Source: Kiritimatiellia bacterium (lineage in GTDB: Bacteria > Verrucomicrobiota > Kiritimatiellia > CAIVKH01). From it: a DNA stretch of 64,000 nt. Below, piece after piece: positions 18,081-32,593 of this stretch (its first letter is position 1; every line of letters starts with the position of its first letter). The notes under the pieces are model-generated. The model was not told the DNA's origin. It worked only from the letters and a program-made list of their open reading frames with translations, and ran no database searches. The translations under genes and the position numbers were made by a program. The stretch covers positions 186,001 to 250,000 of the forward strand of contig JAMLJG010000002.1 in NCBI GenBank assembly GCA_023953695.1, read 5' to 3'.

Positions 18081-20096
18081 TCATTCGCCCGGCAGCAACT
18101 CTGCAGATTCGACAAACAGCACGCCCTGCCCGCCCGCTCGTCCCGCGTCGCGCAGGGCGATGGAGTTTTCGCCCGGATGCAGCTCAATCGGCCCGACATC
18201 GAGCGTGGCGAATTGGCCGACGGGAAATTCGCGGGTCGCCAGGCCGGCAACGTTCACAACTTTTGATGCGCCGATAGCGGCCGCGCGAAGGCGCAACTTC
18301 ACGCGCTGCGGCTGATCGCGGAGCGAGAACGCGCGCAGGGTGGCGGATTGTTTAAAGACGCGGTAATCGTCGAACCGCTGGGTTTGACGCCACGGCTTCG
18401 CGTAGTCCCACTCCGGCCCGTAGAGCAACAGAGCGCTCTTTCCCTCTGCGCGCGCTTTGGCGAGAAGGTCGTCCTCCGTGTTCCAGTAGATGTTCACCAA
18501 GACGCGGTTTGTGGTCGCCGCAAAATAGTCCTCTCGATTCGCGAGTCCATACTCGCGCAACTTGAGGGCGGCGCGATTCGTGAGTGTGGTCGAGTGGGCA
18601 AAATAATCGTGTGGCCATTGCCACGGACCCGTCGCGGGACGATCCCAATAGTTGCGGGCGATTTCCATGTAGGCGGCGTTGGGAAACTTCACGAAAAATC
18701 GCTGAACGCTATCGCGCCAGTGGTTGGCGAGAAACTGGTCATAGGGCTCATCCGGCACGGTAAAGGTCACGGTGACATTCGTCGGCTGATAGATCGCCAT
18801 CTCGTTCCACGGCTCATACCACCGATCCGTCACGACGAGTGTGCCGCGCGGCAAGTTGGCATCGAGCCAGCGCGCGATGTCCTTGTAAGGCGTCGGTTTG
18901 CCGCTGAGCTGAGTGCTGAGCCACGCCGGATAGAGATTGATGGTGGCCAGGAGAAGCGCGGCGGCATAGATGGCCCGATCGCCGGCAAAGCGCGGCGCGC
19001 GCGCGGACACCCAGTCGGCGAGTTGGCGCACACCGAGGATCAGCCAGCAAAGATAGAGCGGCAAATAGGCCAACATGTAGCGCGAGTAGAATCCGGCGCC
19101 GGTCGCTTCTCTCCCGACGAGGAAGGAGGCCATACCAACTCCCAGGACGGCGGGAATCGCGAGCAACCACGGCTCGCGGCGCGCGAGGCGAAATAGTCCC
19201 CATGCCCCCACCAGAAAAAGAACGGCGGTGAGCGCGCTTCGCGCGATGCCGCGCCCGACAAAAAACGAGGTGGCGGAGGTCGCCAGCATTTGCGGCAGCG
19301 ATGGCCCGCCGGCAAATATCCGGCGCGCGAGCGAGCGCATCTCTTCTGACGAGCTCTGCATCAACTGCGGAACGCCCCAATCCGCGAAGAGAACCGGAAG
19401 CCCTACCAACACGGAGAGGCCGACAAGCGTCCACGCTCGCCCCCACGCGACTGGCGCGCGTTTTGCTTGCAGAAAAGAGAAGAGCGCGGATGTGCCCGCG
19501 AGGAGCAGCGCGGCAAACCAGCCGGAGGGCTGGCTATAAATCATCAGAAACATGCCCGCCACGTGGGCGGCTATTCGCCAGGAACTGATTTTGTCTTCGC
19601 GCTGCAACCACCCGCGCACGGCGTCAATCGCCGCAATCGGGAGCAGGAAAGAGCCGAGCACCATCGGGGGATAGAAGTAGGCCTCGCGACTGGTCAAAAT
19701 GAGATAGGGATTGAACGCAACAGTCAGCGCGAGCGCAAAAGCAGTGCCGCGCCCGCCCAATCGTCGGCCCAGCGCCCACGCCGCGGCCACTGCGCCGACG
19801 CCCCACAGGGCAGCGGGTAAGCGCAGGGTGAAATGTCCCGGCTCGAGTCCGAAGAGATTGAGGAAGCCCTCCGTGAACGCCATCGGAAACGGCAACTGCG
19901 CAGAGATCCCCATCAACTGCAGCCATTTGGACATGATGGTCCATGCGCCCTCAACCTGGCGCGTGATGTTGTAGAACAAAATCGTATCCGCGCGAAATGC
20001 GGGTTCCGCGAGGTGATACAGGCGAAAGAACGCAGCTACAGCCAACACGAGAAAGAGCGGCAGGAGCGCGCGAGATTCGGATGGTTTAGTTTTCAT
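18081..20096 (-). CDS. GT-C membrane glycosyltransferase (GT39/ArnT-like)
   Basis: The 671-residue protein has about ten or more hydrophobic helices in its first 400 residues and a soluble periplasmic C-terminal domain of about 270 residues. This is the layout of PMT/ArnT-type enzymes that move sugars from polyprenyl phosphate to lipid or protein. The first loop, which usually carries D-E, reads EPAFRADTILFYN, so only one acidic residue remains. LTSREAYFYPPM matches the second conserved family loop. It overlaps the upstream methyltransferase by 11 bp and closes the heptose operon, which suggests it may transfer a heptose or a modified sugar (inference). Confidence 0.82.
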   Translation of the reverse strand: MKTKPSESRALLPLFLVLAVAAFFRLYHLAEPAFRADTILFYNITRQVEGAWTIMSKWLQLMGISAQLPFPMAFTEGFLNLFGLEPGHFTLRLPAALWGVGAVAAAWALGRRLGGRGTAFALALTVAFNPYLILTSREAYFYPPMVLGSFLLPIAAIDAVRGWLQREDKISSWRIAAHVAGMFLMIYSQPSGWFAALLLAGTSALFSFLQAKRAPVAWGRAWTLVGLSVLVGLPVLFADWGVPQLMQSSSEEMRSLARRIFAGGPSLPQMLATSATSFFVGRGIARSALTAVLFLVGAWGLFRLARREPWLLAIPAVLGVGMASFLVGREATGAGFYSRYMLAYLPLYLCWLILGVRQLADWVSARAPRFAGDRAIYAAALLLATINLYPAWLSTQLSGKPTPYKDIARWLDANLPRGTLVVTDRWYEPWNEMAIYQPTNVTVTFTVPDEPYDQFLANHWRDSVQRFFVKFPNAAYMEIARNYWDRPATGPWQWPHDYFAHSTTLTNRAALKLREYGLANREDYFAATTNRVLVNIYWNTEDDLLAKARAEGKSALLLYGPEWDYAKPWRQTQRFDDYRVFKQSATLRAFSLRDQPQRVKLRLRAAAIGASKVVNVAGLATREFPVGQFATLDVGPIELHPGENSIALRDAGRAGGQGVLFVESAELLPGE

Positions 20097-20952
20097 GTTT
20101 CACAAAGGTCAGTGCGCGAGTGCCACGAGGGTAGAGACGCGCCCACACAATGGCGAGGGGGAGAAATGCGAGAAATGGGAGCAACCGATATCGTCCCGTG
20201 AAGAGAATGCTGAGGCTGGCGGCCAGGGTATTCGGAAAGGGAACAAAGCGGTCGCTCGCCAAGCGCAGCCCAAGGGGATCGAGGACGGGCTTCAACTGGT
20301 CGGCATTGGGAAAACAAATGTGTCGAGGCGCATCGAATCCATGCCACCGCGAACCGAAGCCGCGATATTCGACATTGTCGAGATTGGGGATGACGGCGTG
20401 CAGGGTGCCACCGGGCTTTAGAAGGTCGGCAAGCAACGCAAATGTTCCCGACAAATCGGTGAGATGCTCGAGGACAAAGTGCATGGTAATCACGTCCACG
20501 CGCCCCGCCAACGGGGCCCGCAACGCTGCCACGTCATGAAAGACTTGCACCCCCACCCGCTCGGCAACGCGCGAGGCCTGCATCGCCGTAGGCTCGTAGC
20601 CATAGGCGGCAGAAACGCGGCGTTTGGCTCGATCCAGAAACCAACCGTCACCACATCCATAATCGAGCAAGAGCTGATCGCGCCTCAGAGATGCGACGTC
20701 ATAGTACACCGGGGAGAGCAGAATCCGGCGTGTCACTTCTTGAAGAAGCGATTTGCGAGCGTGCACCGGATAGGCTGCATAGAAGGGCCCGACATCGGTC
20801 GGCACGGGATACTGCTGCACCATGCCGCACGCCGCGCAGCGAACATAATCAACGCGAATGCCAGTCGGCAGAAAGTAGTCAGCCACCGCTTTATGCACAG
20901 CGACGCTGTGCCCATCACCGCAGGCCAAACATCTGAAGGCCGATTCCGTCAC
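20086..20952 (-). CDS. Class I SAM methyltransferase with N-terminal zinc-ribbon
   Basis: The 288-residue protein opens with a C-x2-C...C-x2-C zinc ribbon (CLAC at 8-11, CAAC near 39-42). A Methyltransf_23-type Rossmann domain follows with the SAM loop LLDYGCGDGWFLDRAK and the FVLEHLTD segment. Two hydrophobic stretches sit near the C-terminus. Such zinc-ribbon methyltransferases are frequent in polysaccharide and nucleotide-sugar clusters, where they methylate sugars. The start codon is a GTG that shares its first base with the TAG stop of gmhB. It could methylate the heptose made by this operon, but the substrate is not shown. Confidence 0.82.
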   Translation of the reverse strand: MTESAFRCLACGDGHSVAVHKAVADYFLPTGIRVDYVRCAACGMVQQYPVPTDVGPFYAAYPVHARKSLLQEVTRRILLSPVYYDVASLRRDQLLLDYGCGDGWFLDRAKRRVSAAYGYEPTAMQASRVAERVGVQVFHDVAALRAPLAGRVDVITMHFVLEHLTDLSGTFALLADLLKPGGTLHAVIPNLDNVEYRGFGSRWHGFDAPRHICFPNADQLKPVLDPLGLRLASDRFVPFPNTLAASLSILFTGRYRLLPFLAFLPLAIVWARLYPRGTRALTFVKHEN

Positions 20953-21575
20953 TAGCCACCTCGCTGTTTGTCAGGAGCTCGGCCGTCGAGAATCAGGCGC
21001 TGCACTTCTGCGAGCGATTCAGCAACGAAGTCCGGCTCCGCATCGGCTAGATTCAGAAAACGTTCCGCCAGCGACCACTTCAACGAGGTGACCAACACGG
21101 TGCGACATCCGGCGCGACGACCCGCTGCAATATCCACCAATCCATCGCCAATCATCCAGCTTTCCGCGAGATCAATCCCGAACTCGCGCGCGGCCTCTAT
21201 CAGAAGTCCCGGCGCAGGTTTTCGGCACTCGCACGCCTTCACATATTTCGGATTGCCTCGGGGACACGGCCCCGGATGGTGAGGGCAAAAGCGCAGCGCG
21301 TCCCAGCTCCCGCCCTCTCGCGCAAGTTGCCGCGAAAGCTCCGCATGAACCGTATCGAGCTCCGTCTCCGTGAGCGTTCCCTTTGCGAGGCCCGGCTGAT
21401 TGGTGGCCACGATGACGGTGTATCCAGCCGCCTTCACCGAGCGCAAAAACGCGCCGGCGCCGGGGATCATTTCCACCTGTTCGGGACGGCGCGGCGAATC
21501 CAGAAGACCGTGCGTCTCGTCATACACCATCGCATTCAACACGCCATCGCGATCAATAAATACGGCGGGTTTCAT
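20952..21575 (-). CDS. gmhB: D-glycero-D-manno-heptose 1,7-bisphosphate 7-phosphatase
   Basis: This HAD-superfamily enzyme (207 residues) removes the C7 phosphate from heptose 1,7-bisphosphate. It has the nucleophile motif FIDRDGVLN, motif II ATNQPG and the family's zinc-binding loop CPHHPGPC...CECRKP (residues about 97-117). Motif III K and motif IV GDGLVD (normally GD-x-x-x-D) complete the site. Its start overlaps the nucleotidyltransferase stop as ATGA. With gmhA, hddA and a HddC-like gene in the same operon it supplies the third enzymatic step after sedoheptulose 7-phosphate. Confidence 0.93.
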   Translation of the reverse strand: MKPAVFIDRDGVLNAMVYDETHGLLDSPRRPEQVEMIPGAGAFLRSVKAAGYTVIVATNQPGLAKGTLTETELDTVHAELSRQLAREGGSWDALRFCPHHPGPCPRGNPKYVKACECRKPAPGLLIEAAREFGIDLAESWMIGDGLVDIAAGRRAGCRTVLVTSLKWSLAERFLNLADAEPDFVAESLAEVQRLILDGRAPDKQRGG

Positions 21576-22276
21576 GCACGCCCCTCGCTCAGCACTGCCT
21601 CCAACTCGCGCAGGCCTTCGGGCTTCCCAATTTCGTAAAATCGCTCGGGCGCTTCATAGGCGGCGAGGTCGCCCGCCGCAACAAGGTCGGACAAGATGGC
21701 GGCCATGTCCAGTGGCACAGGCGCCGTTTGATAGCGCTCGATCACAGAGCGGCGAAAGGCGATCAGACCATAGTCTATCCAATCGGCCTCACCGGGCCTG
21801 GCTGTCTTGGAATAGAACACAACGCGATTGCCCTCCACGCGCGCGTTGCTCTTGTCCCACGCGCCTCGATTGCGAAAAACGGTCATCAATGCAGGAGCGC
21901 CGGCATTGCGAAATGCGCCCACCACGGGCGCAAACGGAATGGGCAGATAGGAATCGCCGTAGATCATCAAAAACTCTTCGGCAAGAAGAGGGAGCGCATG
22001 AACCAACGCGCCGCCAGTCCCGCGCAGCTCGCGCGGATTCTCGCGCGCATAGCGAACCCGCAATCCCCACGCGCTGCCGTCTTTCACAAATGCTTCGATT
22101 TGTTCGCCCAAGTGGCCGATCGAAAGAACGACATCAGTCAATGCATTTCGCTTGAGCAGCTCAAGCTGCCAATCGAGAAAGGGACGCCCCGCAACGGGCA
22201 TCAAGGCCTTCGGTCGCAGGGGATCCAACTCTCGCAACCGCGTTCCCAAACCTCCGGCAAGAATCACGATTTGCAT
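21572..22276 (-). CDS. hddC: Heptose-1-phosphate guanylyltransferase-like nucleotidyltransferase (HddC-like)
   Basis: The 234-residue protein carries the activated loop VILAGGLGTRLRELDPLRPK and MPVAGRPFLDWQLELL, then MIYGDSYLPI as the metal-binding site. It belongs to the short sugar-1-phosphate nucleotidyltransferases (HddC/MurU/RmlA-like). By sequence alone the sugar is uncertain. Its place between a gmhB and a hddA-type kinase makes GDP-D-glycero-alpha-D-manno-heptose the likely product. The start at 22276 (MQIVILAGG) overlaps the end of the dehydrogenase-like gene by 13 bp; a longer upstream start would extend into that gene without homology. Confidence 0.8.
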   Translation of the reverse strand: MQIVILAGGLGTRLRELDPLRPKALMPVAGRPFLDWQLELLKRNALTDVVLSIGHLGEQIEAFVKDGSAWGLRVRYARENPRELRGTGGALVHALPLLAEEFLMIYGDSYLPIPFAPVVGAFRNAGAPALMTVFRNRGAWDKSNARVEGNRVVFYSKTARPGEADWIDYGLIAFRRSVIERYQTAPVPLDMAAILSDLVAAGDLAAYEAPERFYEIGKPEGLRELEAVLSEGRA

Positions 22277-23577
22277 GGAGCCGCCCCTCGCCCGCGCCCG
22301 ATATCCAAATAGATCCAACCACTCTTCTCCGCAGACTCAGCGGTCCACAGAGGTGCCGTATCAATGAGGATAGACCCCCGCGCGACCGCGCGCATGGAAG
22401 CCAAGTCCAGCAGGCGATAGTCCTTCCAAGGCGTCATCAAAACCACCGCATCGGCGTCGCGAACTGCCGATTCCACCTCTTCGCAAAACGCTATGTAGCC
22501 TATCGCATCTACTTCATTCCGATCGGCGCGCGGATCGGCGGCGGAGATCGAGACGCCCTCGCGGTGCAACATCGAGGCCAGTTCCACGGCTGCCGAGCGG
22601 CGCAAGGTGCTGGTGTCCGGTTTGTACGTCAAACCGAGAATGGCAACTTTTCGCCCCGTCAACGGTTCGCCGAGCGCCCCTCTTAGTTTTCGCAGAACGA
22701 TTCCGTTCTGCGCAGCGTTGGAAACCATGAGGCCATCGAGAAACGGCGTATCCAAGCCTTCCCGATCTCCCAATGCACGCAGCGTTTGCACATCGCGCGC
22801 CAATGTGCCGCCGGCAAACCCCAAGCCCGGAAACAGCATCGCCTTGGGCCCCACGCGCGGTTCGCCGCGCAAAATTTCAGCGATGCGGTGGCCATCCGCG
22901 CCGACTTCATCGCACAAATTGCCCAGCTCGTTAGCGAAGGTAATCGTTGTGGCGAGAAACGTATTGAGCGCATGCTTGACCATTTCCGCGGTGCGCAGGG
23001 AAACGCGGTCCCATCGCGACACGTGGGGCCACAAGGCCGCAACTCGATCAATGGCGGCGGGATCATCTGCGCCCAGCACCTGCATCGGCGGATGGAGGAA
23101 TCGGTCTATCGCTTGGCCGAGTCGAAGGTTCTCCGGGCTGTAGACCAGCCCTCGCTTCCAATCAGGCCGCACACCGTGCAGGCGATTGGACAGTTCATCG
23201 CACGTGCCGATCGGCACTTGTGCCGTCACTAACACGACCGTGTCGGGCAGCAAGACGGGCGCAAGCGCCAATGCGGCATCGAGGACGCAGGTGGGATCGC
23301 TCTCGTCGCGATCATTGACCGGCGTGTCGTGCATGAGAATCGCAACTTCCGGCGGCGTCACGCCGTTCAAATCGGATATCCAGCGCAGTCGCCCCTGCGC
23401 TTTCTCTTCAGCGATAAGCTCAGCGAGGCCGGGTTCGAACACGGGCAGCTCACCGGCCGCAAGCTGCGCGTTCCGCTCGGGGTCGAGATCGTAGGCCTCT
23501 ACGCGGTGCCCAAGTTTCGCCAAGCAGGCCGCGCCTACCACGCCCTGATGCCAAAGTCCAATGACGAGAACGTGCAT
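22264..23577 (-). CDS. UDP-glucose/GDP-mannose dehydrogenase-like protein lacking the catalytic Cys
   Basis: The 437-residue protein aligns in order with UDP-glucose 6-dehydrogenases: an N-terminal NAD domain, YSPENLRLG, the helix TAEMVKHALNTFLAT with the conserved K201 and N205, and a C-terminal UDP-binding domain (VAILGLTYKPDTSTLRRS). Two key sites differ. The NAD glycine motif reads VIGLWHQGVVG, with Trp at its second glycine. The thiol motif GGSC-[FL]-x-KD reads FAGGTLARDV, with no cysteine. Ordinary family members use that cysteine for the four-electron oxidation to a uronate, so this protein probably catalyses something else, perhaps a single two-electron oxidation. It sits 1 bp after hddA and overlaps the nucleotidyltransferase. 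Confidence 0.85.
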   Translation of the reverse strand: MHVLVIGLWHQGVVGAACLAKLGHRVEAYDLDPERNAQLAAGELPVFEPGLAELIAEEKAQGRLRWISDLNGVTPPEVAILMHDTPVNDRDESDPTCVLDAALALAPVLLPDTVVLVTAQVPIGTCDELSNRLHGVRPDWKRGLVYSPENLRLGQAIDRFLHPPMQVLGADDPAAIDRVAALWPHVSRWDRVSLRTAEMVKHALNTFLATTITFANELGNLCDEVGADGHRIAEILRGEPRVGPKAMLFPGLGFAGGTLARDVQTLRALGDREGLDTPFLDGLMVSNAAQNGIVLRKLRGALGEPLTGRKVAILGLTYKPDTSTLRRSAAVELASMLHREGVSISAADPRADRNEVDAIGYIAFCEEVESAVRDADAVVLMTPWKDYRLLDLASMRAVARGSILIDTAPLWTAESAEKSGWIYLDIGRGRGAAPCKS

Positions 23578-23578
23578 A

Positions 23579-24613
23579 TCAGCGCACTGCATCGAAATCG
23601 TCGAAGGGACTCATGTCGGAAACGACCTTGGTGCCCTGCATCGAGGGGAAGTAACTGATGCGCGGCATTCCGTGGCCCGCCATGAACTCATCGAGTTCTC
23701 GGCCCGCATTCGGCGTGTAGAGCATGACGAATCCCCCGCCGCCTGCGCCGATGATTTTTCCGCCTAAAACCCCGTATTCCTTTTTCACTTGGTCATAGAG
23801 TTCATCGAGAACCGAGAGACTGATGCCGGGCGACATGGCTCGCTTGTACATCCAGTGGCGATCCATCAGAACGGCAAAGCGATCGAGATCTTTCTGGGCA
23901 AATGCGGCACGAATTTCGCGGCCCAATTCCTTTATCTTGAGGAGGCTTTCCAACACCTGCGCGTGGTCTGCACGCGCCTTTTTGGCCACCGCCTCGTTTT
24001 GCGACTTCAGCACCGCCGTTGCCGATCGCTGCACGCCCGTGTAGTACATGCGCGCCTTCGAAACCAATTCGTTCACCGTGACGAAATCCACCGGCACAGG
24101 CGTCACCGTCACCTTGCCATCTTTCCCGATATCCAATTCCTGGAACCCGCCGTATGCCGCGATATATTGATCCTGTTTCCCGACCGGTTCCTTCAGAATA
24201 TCAATTTCAATGCGACACGCTTCTTCCGCCACCTGCTGGGGCGCGACGGGCAACCGCTTGAATGCGTGAATCGCGGTCAAGAGGCCGACGGTATAGGCGC
24301 CGGAGGAACCGAGCCCAGCTTTGGCCGGCATATCGGCGACGCTGGTCAATTCAATATGCTCGCGCAGGTCGTGAAGTTTCAGCGCCTCGCGCGCGAGGGG
24401 GTGCTGAATCTCCTCAATCACATCCACCGTCTCGACGCTGCTGTAGCGAATGACAATCTTCGGCGCGGCGACAGGGCGGCGGTTGATGAAGATATACATG
24501 TATTTGTTGATCGCCATCGTGAACACATAGCCGCCGTGCTCGCGATAAAACGAGGGAAGGTCCGTGCCTCCGCCGCCCAGCGTAATTCGGAAGGGTGTGC
24601 GTGTAACAATCAT
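23579..24613 (-). CDS. hddA: GHMP kinase, D-glycero-alpha-D-manno-heptose 7-phosphate kinase-like
   Basis: The 344-residue product begins MIVTRTPFRITLGGGGTDLPSFY, the signature of the HddA branch of GHMP kinases. It has the phosphate loop PAKAGLGSSGAYTVGLL (about residues 95-112) and the late GHMP motif KIIGAGGGGFVMLY. HddA phosphorylates heptose 7-phosphate at C1 in the GDP-heptose pathway. Sugar kinases of the fucokinase type share this fold, but the neighbouring gmhA, gmhB, transaldolase and nucleotidyltransferase genes favour heptose. It starts 18 bp after the transaldolase stop. Confidence 0.9.
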   Translation of the reverse strand: MIVTRTPFRITLGGGGTDLPSFYREHGGYVFTMAINKYMYIFINRRPVAAPKIVIRYSSVETVDVIEEIQHPLAREALKLHDLREHIELTSVADMPAKAGLGSSGAYTVGLLTAIHAFKRLPVAPQQVAEEACRIEIDILKEPVGKQDQYIAAYGGFQELDIGKDGKVTVTPVPVDFVTVNELVSKARMYYTGVQRSATAVLKSQNEAVAKKARADHAQVLESLLKIKELGREIRAAFAQKDLDRFAVLMDRHWMYKRAMSPGISLSVLDELYDQVKKEYGVLGGKIIGAGGGGFVMLYTPNAGRELDEFMAGHGMPRISYFPSMQGTKVVSDMSPFDDFDAVR

Positions 24614-24631
24614 GTAAAAGCTCCGTGCAAA

Positions 24632-25369
24632 TCAATCTATGGTGAAACGACTCTTCTGCGCGTCGTTGTAGAACATCTTGACCGTGTCCAGCGACAGGTC
24701 TTCCAGCGACATGCCAAATTTTGTGCACTTCGCAAAAATCTCCGGGGTCACCGTGATAATGTGGCACCCCATTTGCTCCGCCTGCATGAGATTGAGCGGC
24801 TCGCGCGGACTCGCCCACAGCAGCTCGGCCGATGGCTTGGCCTTCAAGATCTCCAGCGCCGTCTTCATCAGGGGCAGAGGGTCGCGACCCGTGTCGGCAA
24901 TGCGCCCGGCGAACACGGAGACGAAGGCGGGCACATCCGGCTGCAGCGCATCCACGACCGCCTGCACCTGTTCAAGGGAGAGGATCGCGGTGATGTTGAG
25001 CTGAATTCGCTCCCGATGCAGCTTGGCAATCAGTGGACAGGCCGATTCGCGCCGCGTGTTCGTGACCGGAATCTTCACGAACACATTGGGTGCCAAGGCG
25101 GCGAGCTTGCGCGCCTGCTCCTCCATCTCATCGAACTCATCGGAAAAGACCTCGAAGGAAACCGGCTTGTCCGTCACAACGCGAAGCACCTCGCGCGCAA
25201 AGACCATATAGTTCGTAATGCCTGCCTTCGCCATTAAGGTCGGATTCGTCGTGAACCCTTTGACCAACCCGCGTTGATTGGCCGCAATGATGGAGTCCAG
25301 GTCCGCGCCATCGCCAAACAGCTTGATGCGCATTTGTTCCAGACTGGGGATCGCAGGTTCGGGAGCCAT
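24632..25369 (-). CDS. tal: Transaldolase (short TalC/MipB-like type)
   Basis: The 245-residue protein has KLFGDGADLDSIIAANQRG, FTTNPTLMAKAG and the Schiff-base lysine K99 in NVFVKIPVTN, all conserved in small transaldolases and fructose-6-phosphate aldolases. Transaldolase turns fructose 6-phosphate and erythrose 4-phosphate into glyceraldehyde 3-phosphate and sedoheptulose 7-phosphate, the substrate of GmhA. The gene lies between gmhA (15 bp) and hddA (18 bp), so it probably serves precursor supply here rather than general pentose metabolism. Fructose-6-phosphate aldolase activity cannot be excluded. Confidence 0.88.
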   Translation of the reverse strand: MAPEPAIPSLEQMRIKLFGDGADLDSIIAANQRGLVKGFTTNPTLMAKAGITNYMVFAREVLRVVTDKPVSFEVFSDEFDEMEEQARKLAALAPNVFVKIPVTNTRRESACPLIAKLHRERIQLNITAILSLEQVQAVVDALQPDVPAFVSVFAGRIADTGRDPLPLMKTALEILKAKPSAELLWASPREPLNLMQAEQMGCHIITVTPEIFAKCTKFGMSLEDLSLDTVKMFYNDAQKSRFTID

Positions 25370-25384
25370 GAAGAAGTTCCGGGT

Positions 25385-25999
25385 TCAGGGTTTGCGTTGC
25401 GGTGCGGCAGCCGACTCCCATTTGGTCGCTTGAGCCTGTAGCTCGGGATGCGAAACAAGCAGGTGACCGACGACAGAATGAAACGCTTCTGTGTGCGGCG
25501 TGATGCGCTCCGGCGACACCGTGGGAATGACTACGCACGCATCTGCGACCCTGGCTGTATAGCCGCCATCGCGCCCCACGATGCCCGCGATAGTCGCTCC
25601 CACATCGCGCGCGGCATCGAGTGCCAACACGAGATTCGGGCTGATATTTCGCTCCGCATCGCCACCGCCGACGGACAGGACGAAAACAAGGTCGCCCTTC
25701 CGCAAATGGCTGCCTTTGAGCCAAGCCGCGAAGCTGCTGGCCCAGCCCTCGTCATTGGTGCGCGCAGTCAATTCTGCCACGTTGTCAGTTGGCGCATAGG
25801 CCTCCACATGAACGATTTTCCGCAGGTCGTTGACGAAATGGGATGCCGATGCAGCGCTCCCGCCCACGCCGAGGACGAATACGCGCCCTCCGTTCGCGCG
25901 ACAATCGCGCAACACTTTAACCAGATCATCAATGGAAGTTCGCGAGAGGGCGGCAATGATCGCTGTCGCCTCGTTCAAGTAGGTTTCTACGAAGTGCAT
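25385..25999 (-). CDS. gmhA: Sedoheptulose 7-phosphate isomerase-like SIS protein
   Basis: The 204-residue SIS-domain protein has VLGVGGSAASASHFVNDLRK, matching the GmhA signature GNGGSAADAQHF, and TNDEGWASSF in the active-site loop. The third SIS motif reads VLSVGGGDAERNISPNL instead of the usual STSGNSPN, as in a divergent GmhA-like branch. GmhA converts sedoheptulose 7-phosphate to D-glycero-D-manno-heptose 7-phosphate. It is the first gene of the minus-strand heptose operon and is divergent from an SGNH hydrolase across a 97-bp spacer that must hold the operon promoter. Confidence 0.87.
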   Translation of the reverse strand: MHFVETYLNEATAIIAALSRTSIDDLVKVLRDCRANGGRVFVLGVGGSAASASHFVNDLRKIVHVEAYAPTDNVAELTARTNDEGWASSFAAWLKGSHLRKGDLVFVLSVGGGDAERNISPNLVLALDAARDVGATIAGIVGRDGGYTARVADACVVIPTVSPERITPHTEAFHSVVGHLLVSHPELQAQATKWESAAAPQRKP

Positions 26000-27799: not shown

Positions 27800-29797
27800 C
27801 TAGTTCTGCGGCGCAACGCGCGATACGGACGCGCCGTGGACATAGAGCGTCGCATCCATTTGCTTCGGCGACGGAAGCACTTCGAACGTGAGCTTCATCT
27901 CGCCCGGCGCGACTAGCGCGTTGATGGCCAGTTCGCCCACGCGATCGCCGGGTATCTCCACACGGTCAGCAACTCGCTGATTGTCCGGGCCGTAAATCGT
28001 GAGGCGACACCCATTGGGTGGCGCCATGGCCTGAATGGCTATGCGGCCGGACTGATTGCTTGTGGAAGCATTCCCAATGATCAGGGTGGCGAATTGGCGG
28101 GTGACCAGCCAGTCATTCATGCCGCGATCCTTCACATAATGCCAGTCCGCACCAAAATAGTGATAGAGCGCACGCCCCTGCTTGCGGGCGAGCTCAGCCA
28201 TGTCCTCGGGACGATTGTAGGAAATCAAAATATGGTCAATGTAGCGATTCTGCCACTGCGTATCGCCGGTGGGCTGCGTTTTCAACTTCACCATCTTTTG
28301 GAAGGCCGGATCCGTCAGCCACACTTGGTTCACGAATAGATCGGAGCGTGGAACAGGCTTGTTGAATGGCGTGAGCGGATCGAGAAGGTCCGTCGGCCAA
28401 TACTCCACATACGCCGTTGTCGGAAAGCGTTGGAAGAGTGAGACCATCCGCTCTTGCACCTGGAGGCGCCGATAGTCCTCCGCCGAGCTCCACGTGACGG
28501 GAAAGGTCGCCGAGCGACCGGGGGTCGGATAGACCGAGGGGACTCCGCGCAGTTCATAGCCGTTCCAAAAACAATAGATCCCGTTCTCCGGCAGGTGGCT
28601 CTGAACCCAACGCGCCAGTTCTTTGAAGTTCGACCCGCGGCATTCCAACTGGGTGACTAACCACGAATTGTATCCGAGCCATGCAAGGAGCACCGCGGCC
28701 AGCGCATAGCGCAGTGACGCCAGTATCCTCGGCGCACGCTCGACAATTTTCTCGCTGAGCGAGGCGATCCCAACACCCGCCACAACGAGAAGAATCGGCA
28801 TACTCGCGGCAAAATAGCGAATCTCAAAACGCGCGACGCGGAGGAGATAGGCCTGCAGAGCAAAGCTGATTGCCAGGTGCACCAACAACAAACGCGCCGT
28901 GCGCTTGGTGTTCGTCTGAGCCCGAAGCAGCGAATAGACACCCCATCCCAGCACAGCGATAAACGGCAACAGCGCCCACCACGCCTCGCCCCACCCCATT
29001 CGCCCCAGCAAATCCTTCAAGATGGATGAACTGATTCTCCGCACCGATGCCGATGCGTCTGAATCCACCCAGCCTTTGCCGAGAAGTTTCAACAGGAACG
29101 GAAGGAAAAACAGAAAAGGCGCGCCGAGAATGGCCACGAGCGAAAGCAGGCGATTCGGAGTGCGTGTTTGCGGGTTTGCCAGCAACGCCACACCGAGCAC
29201 GGCGCACCACGAGGCGAGGAAAACCAGGCCCGAAAGGTGCGCGTAGAGCAAGAGGACGGACAACACTCCATACGCCGCGATGTCGCGAAGCGACGGCTTC
29301 CGGCCCTCGCGCGCGGCGTCAAAGATTCTCAATCCGGCCCAGAGCACGCCGGTCGAAAAGCAGATCAACATGCTGTAGTCGTAGGCCTCGCGACTGTAAT
29401 ACACATGAAACGGAGATAGCGCGGTGAGCGCCATCGCCCAAAGCGCCGCTTTCACTCCTGCGAGACGGCGCGTCAACGCGAAGACCAGGGGCAAGGAAGC
29501 GACGCCGATCAAGGTGAAGGGCAATCGCGCGAGAAATTCTGACGGGAACCCCGATGTTGCCACATCGTGCCCCCAGAGCACAGCTTTGAGAACAATCATC
29601 AGCAAGGGAAGCCGATGCATGAAGAGGAAACGTTGCAATTCCGTTCCGTAAGCAGTGAAGAGCCCCTTCTCCTGCAAGGCGAATTGCACAACGTTGACTT
29701 CGTCTATCTGAAACGAAGCGCGTCCCAAATCGAGGAGACGAAATATCAGTCCCGCGACAAGAAGAGCCCAGAAAATTGTCTTCTGTTTTGCGTTCAT
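27800..29797 (-). CDS. GT-C membrane glycosyltransferase (GT39/PMT_2-like)
   Basis: The 665-residue protein has a hydrophobic N-terminal half of roughly ten helices and a soluble C-terminal domain. The first loop carries the acidic pair in GRASFQIDEVNVV, and a second family loop reads VYYSREAYDYSML. This matches PMT_2/ArnT-type transferases that use polyprenyl-phosphate sugars on the periplasmic side. Its start overlaps the upstream oxidoreductase stop by ATGA, and it ends a five-gene cassette headed by an ArnC-like GT2 that probably makes its lipid-linked donor. Confidence 0.87.
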   Translation of the reverse strand: MNAKQKTIFWALLVAGLIFRLLDLGRASFQIDEVNVVQFALQEKGLFTAYGTELQRFLFMHRLPLLMIVLKAVLWGHDVATSGFPSEFLARLPFTLIGVASLPLVFALTRRLAGVKAALWAMALTALSPFHVYYSREAYDYSMLICFSTGVLWAGLRIFDAAREGRKPSLRDIAAYGVLSVLLLYAHLSGLVFLASWCAVLGVALLANPQTRTPNRLLSLVAILGAPFLFFLPFLLKLLGKGWVDSDASASVRRISSSILKDLLGRMGWGEAWWALLPFIAVLGWGVYSLLRAQTNTKRTARLLLVHLAISFALQAYLLRVARFEIRYFAASMPILLVVAGVGIASLSEKIVERAPRILASLRYALAAVLLAWLGYNSWLVTQLECRGSNFKELARWVQSHLPENGIYCFWNGYELRGVPSVYPTPGRSATFPVTWSSAEDYRRLQVQERMVSLFQRFPTTAYVEYWPTDLLDPLTPFNKPVPRSDLFVNQVWLTDPAFQKMVKLKTQPTGDTQWQNRYIDHILISYNRPEDMAELARKQGRALYHYFGADWHYVKDRGMNDWLVTRQFATLIIGNASTSNQSGRIAIQAMAPPNGCRLTIYGPDNQRVADRVEIPGDRVGELAINALVAPGEMKLTFEVLPSPKQMDATLYVHGASVSRVAPQN

Positions 29798-30762
29798 CGA
29801 AAAGTCCTAACCGTTTGCGCAATGGAAAGCGCGGCTTGGGCGTCGTCCAACGTGCTGCAAAACGAGTCGCCTCCAGAAATCGCCTGGACAAAATGTTCGA
29901 ATTCGATGCGCCACGAATCATCGGAGCCCGGATATTCCCATCGCTGCGTCTCCGGAGGGCCCATCTGCGGCAGCATCCGATAGTGTGTCAACGACTCAGG
30001 GCCATAGCTCCCCCCGAGTCCTTCCACTTGCAGCTTCCCATCGCGACCCACAATCTCCATCGAAAACATATTTTTCCACTCGGTCCAGGTGGCGTGAAGA
30101 AATGCCGCTTGTCCCGAAGCAGTTCGGAGGAGCATGAAGGCGTTGTCTTCCACCGCCATCTTCCAAAAGTATGTGGGCGCATAGCCCTGCACATGGGGAA
30201 AATCGCCGAGAAACCAGCGCGACAGATCAATCAGATGCACGCCTTGATCAATCGCCTCGCCGCCGCCGGATTTCGCTTCATTTGCACGCCACTCTTTCTC
30301 ATACCCAATTCGCCCGCCGTGCCCGTAGCGCCCGCGAATGAATATCAAAGGACCCAGTGCGCCGGAATCCACAATGGCGCGCGCTTGCAAGAGCGCGGGA
30401 TGAAATCGGTGATTATAGCCAAACCGAACGACACGATTCGCGCGGAGCGCCGCGTCGCGCACGGCCTCCAATTCTTCCGGCCGGCAGGCGCCGGGCTTTT
30501 CTACTAACACGTGTTTTCCGGCGCGCAACGCGTCAGCGGCGAGTCCTGCCAGTTGGTCGTGTGTCGTCGCGATGATGACGACTTTGATATCGCGAGCTGC
30601 TTGCAGGGCTTCCGCAGAGCGTTCAACGCGCGCGCCGATGCGTTCCGCCAAAGCCGAAGCCTTCGCTTCATCCACATCGCAGACAGCCACAACGCGATGA
30701 GGAGCGACGCACAACGCTCGCTTGGCGCCAATGAGGCCGCATCCAATGATCCCGATATTCAT
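29794..30762 (-). CDS. Gfo/Idh/MocA-family sugar oxidoreductase
   Basis: The 322-residue protein starts IGIIGCGLIGAKRA (NAD(P) loop). It has IIATTHDQLA, the catalytic-lysine motif HVLVEKPGA, and the C-terminal alpha/beta domain with GGEAIDQGVHLIDLSRWFLGD, whose D-x-x-x-H is a common active-site pair. Family members in glycan loci oxidise or reduce nucleotide-linked sugars at C3 (WlbA-like). I chose 30762 (ATG) because it gives the Rossmann motif at the N-terminus and overlaps the SDR stop as ATGA. Substrate unknown. Confidence 0.88.
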   Translation of the reverse strand: MNIGIIGCGLIGAKRALCVAPHRVVAVCDVDEAKASALAERIGARVERSAEALQAARDIKVVIIATTHDQLAGLAADALRAGKHVLVEKPGACRPEELEAVRDAALRANRVVRFGYNHRFHPALLQARAIVDSGALGPLIFIRGRYGHGGRIGYEKEWRANEAKSGGGEAIDQGVHLIDLSRWFLGDFPHVQGYAPTYFWKMAVEDNAFMLLRTASGQAAFLHATWTEWKNMFSMEIVGRDGKLQVEGLGGSYGPESLTHYRMLPQMGPPETQRWEYPGSDDSWRIEFEHFVQAISGGDSFCSTLDDAQAALSIAQTVRTFR

Positions 30763-31640
30763 GAACCCGCGTCCCACTTGTGACCGCGATCCTCCGGGAC
30801 GATGCGGCGAAGCGTGTAGATATCGGAACCCGATAGTTCTTCGCGGCGCTGAGGCAACGAGGCCCACGGATCCCACGGCGCACTGAGCAGGCGACCCGTG
30901 ATCCCGTCGCTCTCCGAACTCGCGAGAAAAACGCACAGCGCTGTCGCTCTCGCAAATGCGTCATGCTCGCCGCGCCGCTGCCGCTCGATCTCCTTGCTAT
31001 AGCCCGTGCCCAAAATGTCCGCTCCAATTTCCATCACATCGTCAGCCATCTTCGTCGCCAGCAATCCCGGCGCAACCGCGTTGACATCAATCGCGTTCTC
31101 GGCGAGTTCCAATGCGAGCGTTTCCGTCAAGCGGACAAGTCCGGTCTTAGATGCGCCATATGAACTCAGATTTCGTATGGCCTTCGTCGCGCCGCCGCCG
31201 GAGATGTTGATAATTTTCCCACGGCCTGCTCGCTTCATGTGCGGAATTATGCAGCGACACAAATACGCGGGACCGAAAAGATTCAGTTCAAGCGCCTCGC
31301 GCCATTGCGCCCAATCCGATTCCTCCAGTGGCGCGCGCGGCCCGGCTGTGCCCGCGCAATTCACCAAAATGTCCACCCGCCCCCAAGCGCCCAAAACGGA
31401 TTCAACGATGTGTTCGATGTCGCGCTCTTGCGACACGTCGCCCGGAACAGCCAACACAGCTTGGCCCTCGCTCAACGTGGGCGTCAGCTCCGCGCACAAC
31501 TTCGTCAGTTTGTCGGCCGAGCGCGCAACCGCGGCGACCGATGCGCCTTCTTGCACAAAGTGGCGGGCAATCCGCTCACCAAAGCCTTGACTTGCGCCCG
31601 TGACCAAGGCCACACGGCCCCCCAACCGCTTCTCACTCAC
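30759..31640 (-). CDS. Short-chain dehydrogenase/reductase (classical SDR)
   Basis: The 293-residue protein has VALVTGASQGFGERIA (cofactor loop), ILVNCAGTAG, NISGGGATKA and the catalytic Y-x-x-x-K in SSYGASKTG. The start is a GTG at 31640 whose bases overlap the previous stop (GTGA, 31637-31640). Upstream in-frame starts would add about 48 unlike residues inside the neighbouring gene. Classical SDRs with sugar or polyketide substrates look alike, so the substrate is open. Its place between an epimerase and a Gfo/Idh enzyme suggests a step in making a modified sugar. Confidence 0.88.
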   Translation of the reverse strand: MSEKRLGGRVALVTGASQGFGERIARHFVQEGASVAAVARSADKLTKLCAELTPTLSEGQAVLAVPGDVSQERDIEHIVESVLGAWGRVDILVNCAGTAGPRAPLEESDWAQWREALELNLFGPAYLCRCIIPHMKRAGRGKIINISGGGATKAIRNLSSYGASKTGLVRLTETLALELAENAIDVNAVAPGLLATKMADDVMEIGADILGTGYSKEIERQRRGEHDAFARATALCVFLASSESDGITGRLLSAPWDPWASLPQRREELSGSDIYTLRRIVPEDRGHKWDAGS

Positions 31641-32593
31641 GCGCGCGCCTCCAACAACCACGGGTTCTCTCGCAGGTATTCCACCGTCTTGACGACTCCC
31701 TCGCGAATGGTTAACCGCGGAGCCCAACCGAGCGATCGGATTCGCGCGCAATCGAGGAAAATGAAGGGGTTGTCGCCAACCCACCCACGATCGCCTCCTG
31801 AAAACTTCAACTCGGGCTTCACGTTCAACGCCTCACAAATCCAGCCGATCGAATCCGTCACTCGGCAATATTCGTCCGCACCTAGATTGAATACCCCGAC
31901 CGGATCGCGCCCCTTTTCGAGGGCGGTCAGCATGGCATCAATGCAATCCTTCACGTACAGATAGGACTTCCGCTGCGTTCCATCGCCCAGCACGCGCAAT
32001 TCCTGAGGGTGCTCGCGTAGCTGCTTGTAGAAGTCAAACACGTGGCCGTGACTGTAGCGCTCGCCGAGGAGTGAAACAAAACGGAAGATGAAGCCCTGCA
32101 GGCCATAGCCTGCCGCGTAGGCAGCAATCATTCCCTCGCCTGCCAGCTTGGATGCCGCATAGAGCGACGTTTGGATGGGAAACGGAGCGTCCTCCGGTGT
32201 CGGAAATACCTTCGCCTCGCCATATACCGAGCCTGTCGAAGAAAACGCAATTCGGCGCGCGCCGGCGGCCCGCATCGCTTCAAGCACATTGTGTGTCGCG
32301 ATCGTGTTCTGTTCCAAGTCGCGCCTCGGATGATCCAAGCCAAACCGAACATCCGCATTGGCAGCGAGGTGGAACACGGTGTCGCAACCGCGCATCGCCT
32401 CCGTCAACGCCGCGACGTCCAGCACATCGCCGCGCACAAAGCGAAAGTGCGGGTTGCCCGCATACGGATTGAAATAGTCCAGAAACCCGCTGCTCAAGTT
32501 GTCATAGGCAACCACAGAGTGGCCATCGCCAACCAGGCGATCCACCAGATGGCTCCCGATAAAGCCCGCCCCACCCGTCACTAAAACATTCAC
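31637..32593 (-). CDS. NAD-dependent epimerase (GalE-like extended SDR)
   Basis: The 318-residue protein has MNVLVTGGAGFIGSHLVDRL, AYDNLSSGFLDYF, FSSTGSVYGE and the catalytic Y-x-x-x-K in SLYAASKLAGE, and it ends with the typical SWAPR-like segment LGWAPRLTIREGV. It most resembles UDP-glucose 4-epimerase and related WbpP/Gmd-type enzymes. It overlaps the GT2 stop by ATGA and the SDR start by GTGA. With the next two oxidoreductases it probably prepares the sugar moved by the GT enzymes at either end of the cassette. Confidence 0.9.
   Translation of the reverse strand: MNVLVTGGAGFIGSHLVDRLVGDGHSVVAYDNLSSGFLDYFNPYAGNPHFRFVRGDVLDVAALTEAMRGCDTVFHLAANADVRFGLDHPRRDLEQNTIATHNVLEAMRAAGARRIAFSSTGSVYGEAKVFPTPEDAPFPIQTSLYAASKLAGEGMIAAYAAGYGLQGFIFRFVSLLGERYSHGHVFDFYKQLREHPQELRVLGDGTQRKSYLYVKDCIDAMLTALEKGRDPVGVFNLGADEYCRVTDSIGWICEALNVKPELKFSGGDRGWVGDNPFIFLDCARIRSLGWAPRLTIREGVVKTVEYLRENPWLLEARA

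Follow-up and report, generated by a model that had tools for sequence, protein, structure and literature searches.

A cysteine-less branch of the UDP-glucose dehydrogenase family in a conserved gene cassette resembling the lincosamide octose pathway

Among 229 NDP-sugar dehydrogenases, 18 residues have been reported as invariant (PMC4794789). Asp264 is the base of the first oxidation, Cys260 is the covalent catalyst of the second, and the thioester is hydrolysed by Tyr10, which is present in 98% of the enzymes (PMC4794789; also PMC3184952). As far as active-site residues can tell, this textbook four-electron family includes a large branch that has been remodelled for a two-electron reaction, the members of which carry the database label 'nucleotide sugar dehydrogenase'.

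The GDP-octose of the lincosamide antibiotics is reportedly remodelled, according to a study from 2020, by 6-epimerisation, 6,8-dehydration, 4-epimerisation and 6-transamination; LmbL, which we take to be UDP-glucose dehydrogenase (UGD)-like, presumably performs the 6,8-dehydration, and LmbZ is taken to be of the Gfo/Idh class. The enzymes of the lincomycin and celesticetin pathways are the transaldolase LmbR, the octulose 8-phosphate isomerase LmbN, the kinase LmbP, the phosphatase LmbK, the guanylyltransferase LmbO, the dehydrogenase LmbL, the epimerase LmbM, the oxidoreductase LmbZ and the aminotransferase LmbS (PMC4351081), and a review has GDP-octose converted to GDP-lincosamide via LmbM, LmbL, CcbZ and CcbS (PMC12945683). 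The GDP-D,D-heptose pathway has four activating enzyme classes in common with the cassette described below, but lacks its transaldolase and its block of UGD-like, Gfo/Idh and epimerase enzymes.

The window, a stretch of 64,000 nucleotides from a Kiritimatiellia bacterium, carries on its minus strand a UGD-family gene running from an ATG at 23577 to a stop at 22264 and encoding 437 amino acids. It lies in a tight operon: in TGATATG the stop of the upstream kinase gene overlaps the dehydrogenase ATG at 23577, and the dehydrogenase gene overlaps the downstream nucleotidyltransferase gene. All three UGD domains are found in the protein (PF03721 at 95.6 bits, PF00984 at 75.6 and PF03720 at 82.8), TIGR03026 matches at 270 bits (cut-off 189.8), and the predicted structure (pLDDT 93.5) superposes on UGD crystal structures with a TM score of about 0.9. 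With these domains and this fold the protein is a member of the NDP-sugar dehydrogenase (UGD/GMD) superfamily. The UDP-glucose 6-dehydrogenases BceC (2y0e), UgdG (4a7p) and that of P. gingivalis (3gg2) share 28-31% identity, a TM score of about 0.9 and the three domains with it, but have Cys260 where it has Thr258, Tyr10 for His10, Thr118 for Gln120, Glu145 for Leu153 and Gly9 for Trp9. The first-pass annotation had described a UGD homologue with no catalytic Cys and an altered NAD loop, in which K201, N205 and the UDP-binding domain were kept, and the protein reads exactly so: GLWHQG occupies residues 7-12, FAGGTLARD residues 254-262, and Q120, E149, L153, K201, N205, T258 and D262 stand at the positions discussed below.

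Active sites were compared in an alignment of 44 diverse Cys-less members with ten canonical enzymes. In all 44 members the position of catalytic Cys260 is taken by Thr258, canonical Tyr10 by His10, Thr118 by Gln120 and Glu145 by Leu153, and Arg261 stands in every member where canonical enzymes have Lys; the canonical set has Cys, Tyr, Thr, Glu and Lys in the Thr258, His10, Gln120, Leu153 and Arg261 columns, ten times out of ten. The NAD loop is GxWHxG instead of GxGxxG, Gly9 being replaced by Trp (43/44) or Tyr (1/44), while the Gly257 column holds Ala, Ser or Gly. Within this alignment the Thr258 pattern, 44 of 44 against ten of ten with Cys, is far beyond chance. Kept in all 44 are Glu141, Glu201, Lys204, Asn208, Gly258, Asp264 and Asn287 (canonical numbering), and the window-protein equivalents of Glu141, Lys204, Asn208 and Asp264, namely E149, K201, N205 and D262, are invariant. 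A second alignment, of 37 members, likewise has E149, K201, N205, T258, D262, H10, D84 and Q120 invariant. No invariant Cys column was found among these 37, the commonest being column 222 (32/37) and column 18 (29/37). Another cysteine taking the place of the lost one, which the first-pass annotation had named, if modelled in the active site, as one of two findings that would overturn its reading, was rejected, since the Cys columns are all variable.

Two aspects of this pattern bear on the reaction. First, Cys260, Tyr10 and GxGxxG, by which a four-electron UDP-glucose 6-dehydrogenase is recognised, are absent from the aligned sequences of the Cys-less clade; second, the residues of the thioester half are replaced by other invariant ones and the first-oxidation set is kept, as judged from the alignments. 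With the first half kept and the second half replaced, a two-electron oxidation is to be expected, and the earlier suggestion of a two-electron oxidase gains support from the same residues. Glu141 (E149 in the window protein) breaks the clean split into halves, being kept in the Cys-less clade; mutation of its human counterpart traps the thiohemiacetal (structure 3khu). That a uronate is still made, by a thiol-independent route through the aldehyde hydrate, is very improbable. Human UGDH C276A does oxidise added aldehyde, which speaks for such a route, but it cannot complete the reaction from UDP-glucose (PMC3184952), and in the Cys-less enzymes Tyr10 and Glu145 are replaced as well.

It could also be asked whether the protein is still an enzyme. 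A non-catalytic subunit, binding substrate or regulating, would agree with the loss of Cys and Tyr10, and with Trp in place of Gly9, the second glycine in the dinucleotide loop. However, E149, K201, N205, D262 and many more residues are invariant down to 35% identity and across many phyla, and because this invariance extends to very distant members a mere binding protein, which had been offered as one possible role, is hardly to be expected. Decay of a canonical UGD is ruled out: the replacing residues are themselves invariant, and the genome, which has other UGD-family genes, keeps a Cys-bearing one (GGSCFPKD).

One scan of species genomes returned 80 relatives with 35-72% identity. Their hosts are Kiritimatiellae, Verrucomicrobia, Lentisphaerae, Planctomycetes, Acidobacteria, Myxococcales, Chloroflexi, Omnitrophica, Alphaproteobacteria (Bradyrhizobium, Tardiphaga, Rhodospirillales), several CPR groups and one archaeal MAG. 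Practically all relatives have GxWHxG, PENL and GGTL(A/G)RD. The scan patterns included EMVKHALN and neither the glycine loop nor the GGTLARD stretch, whose constancy is therefore not built in. In the tree a branch with SH-aLRT 100 separates the Cys-less sequences, which are monophyletic, from the ten canonical enzymes. Among 195 genomes of the window's phylum, ten score at least 530 bits and every other match at most 405; these ten, some of which were read individually, were taken as Cys-less, and the trait is patchy across the phylum, as expected of accessory glycan loci. By alignment and tree, then, the clade is a real, conserved and separate branch of the UGD family, and the missing cysteine is a trait of that family and not decay. 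The branch is apparently undescribed so far, as no published description was found in the open-licence literature, which misses most subscription papers. The record titled Candidatus Micrarchaeota, an archaeal MAG contig, has a Cys-less member without sugar-activating genes nearby, possibly through transfer or misbinning.

The partner genes of the window enzyme, all on the minus strand, form two blocks (20952-25999 and 29794-32593) that together make up a cassette of nine genes. In the first block the dehydrogenase gene is accompanied by an HddA-like GHMP sugar-1-kinase of the LmbP class (23579-24613; HddA model 134.5 bits, cut-off 600; PDB heptose kinases 125 bits), a transaldolase of the LmbR class (24632-25369; TIGR02134 331.6 bits, above cut-off; conserved K99, E73 and T127), a GmhA-like SIS-domain sugar-phosphate isomerase of the LmbN class (25385-25999; GmhA model 53.7 bits, cut-off 209; PDB phosphoheptose isomerases 45 bits), an HddC-like sugar-1-phosphate nucleotidyltransferase of the LmbO class (21572-22276; HddC model 73.9 bits, cut-off 300), whose sequence does not settle which nucleotide it uses, guanylyl or another, and a GmhB-like HAD-IIIA phosphatase of the LmbK class (20952-21575; PRK08942 139.4 bits, cut-off 178). 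The second block consists of a GalE-like extended SDR epimerase of the LmbM class (31637-32593; PDB UDP-galactose 4-epimerases 281-285 bits), a classical SDR with Tyr161/Lys165 (30759-31640), which occupies the place of the lincosamide aminotransferase LmbS, and a Gfo/Idh/MocA oxidoreductase of the LmbZ class with an EKP motif (29794-30762). The PDB relative 8rdg of the extended SDR, a Pyrococcus UDP-galactose 4-epimerase, fits the epimerase role, and the SDR model is of low confidence. The active-site residues of the partner enzymes are conserved. Two further large ORFs of the locus, at 18081-20096 (minus, 671 aa) and 27800-29797 (minus, 665 aa), apparently encode membrane proteins, have no Pfam match at 1e-5 and are possibly polysaccharide glycosyltransferases.

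To find the partners of the clade, the ORFs around all loci were clustered de novo, which gave nine dominant families; some loci represent one genome taken from two collections (L005/L114, L007/L115). Of the 54 loci that span 15 kb or more and have a Thr-type enzyme, 52 contain the Gfo/Idh enzyme, 51 the extended SDR, 46 the kinase, 44 each the isomerase, the classical SDR and the phosphatase, 43 the nucleotidyltransferase and 42 the transaldolase. All four sugar-activating genes occur in 39 of these loci and are absent nearby in five. The order epimerase, Cys-less enzyme, SDR, Gfo/Idh, kinase, nucleotidyltransferase, isomerase, phosphatase, transaldolase is identical, on one strand, in 26 of the 54, and hosts of the cassette include Verrucomicrobia, Kiritimatiellae, Planctomycetes, Rhizobiales, CPR and others. 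Carriers in culture from soil are Tardiphaga robiniae Vaf-07 and Bradyrhizobium sp. S69. No cassette partners were found near canonical UGDs at eight loci of the same bacterial family, three of which are short stretches. In the window's relatives outside its genus (L006, L007, L012 and L083, about 5.9-11.4 kb), two other SDRs, one of them a second extended SDR, follow the Gfo/Idh gene in place of the classical SDR; subclades may thus have swapped the enzyme for the last reduction. The collected homologues with GxWHxG and GGTL(A/G)RD, whose neighbourhoods the first-pass annotation had proposed to compare, do share conserved gene neighbours.

Matched by class, eight of the nine enzymes of the lincosamide GDP-octose set (LmbM, L, Z, P, O, N, K and R) have a counterpart in the cassette, and these eight classes occur together in 36 of the 54 long loci and in the window. 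LmbL and CcbL are annotated dehydrogenases amid the same gene classes, and it is by gene class that they are likened to the Cys-less enzyme. No PLP aminotransferase corresponding to LmbS was found inside the contiguous nine-gene cassette, where an SDR is present instead. Lincosamide clusters have S-glycosyltransferase and NRPS-like genes, whereas the cassette is without both and has glycosyltransferases and a polysaccharide setting.

The annotation of the locus as a heptose operon is probably wrong in its heptose. On the one hand, the best PDB matches of the kinase and isomerase are heptose enzymes, with modest scores (125 and 45 bits), and for Campylobacter GDP-heptoses, whose C6 epimerisation has no known enzyme, C6 oxidation and reduction is one proposed route (PMC10680097). 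A GDP-heptose would accordingly be oxidised at C6 to a 6-keto-heptose, from which the SDR or epimerase would give an L-glycero or otherwise remodelled heptose, and the transaldolase would only feed sedoheptulose 7-phosphate. On the other hand, kinase, nucleotidyltransferase, isomerase and phosphatase all score under, and mostly far under, the curated heptose cut-offs, the complete gene set fits an octose pathway, and the transaldolase, present in 42 of 54 cassettes, is missing from all five of the inspected HddA-like clusters that have no Cys-less enzyme (Rhizobium, Azospirillum, Solidesulfovibrio, a small Lawsonia plasmid and Streptomyces SAT1). We regard the heptose as rather unlikely. On plasmids, transaldolases with at least 55% identity occur only in five cassette-carrying records. 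The transaldolase is the discriminating gene and favours octose without proving it; since it is dedicated and accompanied by lincosamide-type enzyme classes, the substrate is probably GDP-octose and less likely GDP-heptose.

Because the Cys-less enzyme nearly always stands beside genes like those of an octose pathway, its product is probably a ketone on a long-chain sugar, not a sugar acid. With moderate confidence the enzyme may be said to act like LmbL. On balance we incline to a catalytically competent, NAD-dependent two-electron dehydrogenase of LmbL type, which would act on a long-chain GDP-sugar meant for a surface glycan and oxidise its secondary alcohol at C6 to the ketone; from these comparisons we infer the substrate with its carbon number and nucleotide, the product, the attack at C6 and the dehydration. 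An Asp262-bound water, Lys201, Asn205 and Glu149 would perform the first-oxidation chemistry as in UGD. As octoses and heptoses have a secondary carbon at C6, the product would be a ketone and an acid would be impossible; a ketone would leave the thiol, the thioester-hydrolysing Tyr10 and a second oxidation useless, which would explain their loss. Oxidation of a terminal primary alcohol that stops at the aldehyde, giving a dialdose that a later step would reduce or extend by a C-C bond, is improbable. UGD without its thiol would indeed halt there, C6 of a hexose is a primary alcohol, and the fold puts that carbon at the nicotinamide, but free aldehydes are reactive, a constant aldehyde-using partner is absent, and the sole aldolase-type partner has the residues of a transaldolase, not of FSA type.

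For the ketone on GDP-octose, the cassette would work as follows. The transaldolase would yield octulose 8-phosphate, which isomerase, 1-kinase, 8-phosphatase and nucleotidyltransferase would turn into GDP-octose, to be remodelled by the GalE-like epimerase, the Cys-less enzyme and the Gfo/Idh enzyme. By analogy with LmbL, the C6 ketone could allow the 8-hydroxyl to leave and the hydride to be given back, a net 6,8-dehydration, so that the Cys-less enzyme is perhaps a 6,8-dehydratase. At the step that is a transamination in lincosamide producers, the SDR would reduce the ketone that is left. The result would be a neutral (8-deoxy)octose, and the finished sugar would enter a surface polysaccharide. 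It is a plausible but tentative extension that the GDP-octose pathway is widespread for surface glycans, in many phyla and CPR, with the Cys-less clade as an unnamed C6-ketone-forming (6,8-dehydrating) UGD branch. If the octose reading is true, pathways related to that of the lincomycin sugar serve polysaccharides in many phyla. This would point to a class of octose-bearing glycans that has yet to be described, and to where the antibiotic pathway may have come from.

Several records touch on these systems. Streptomyces sp. 3211, which has a transaldolase, did not prove to be an LmbL-type actinobacterial cassette on a plasmid, nor is the Streptomyces SAT1 plasmid cluster, with its hygromycin-type APH(7'') gene, an LmbL-type cassette. 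Bradyrhizobium cassettes have about 11 genes, and photosynthetic bradyrhizobia have an O-antigen cluster of 11 genes (PMC4743980). Identity with the bradyrhizose operon was rejected: a Bradyrhizobium genome (L098), which matches both published ORS285 gdh primers exactly, is without a Cys-less UGD (best 34%), and its isomerase- and transferase-like genes are only distant. At 9098-12480 in L098, in the cluster that the bradyrhizose O-antigen reportedly requires, there are distant GmhA-like and HddC-like genes, a hint that the ten-carbon sugar bradyrhizose may have a precursor of the GDP-heptose type. The 194-kb plasmid NZ_CP107055.1 of the pig-gut bacterium Lawsonia intracellularis (L118, 6949-15300) carries the cassette with a Cys-less enzyme that has the motifs GLWHLG and GGTLARD; there the cassette is annotated only as ordinary sugar genes.
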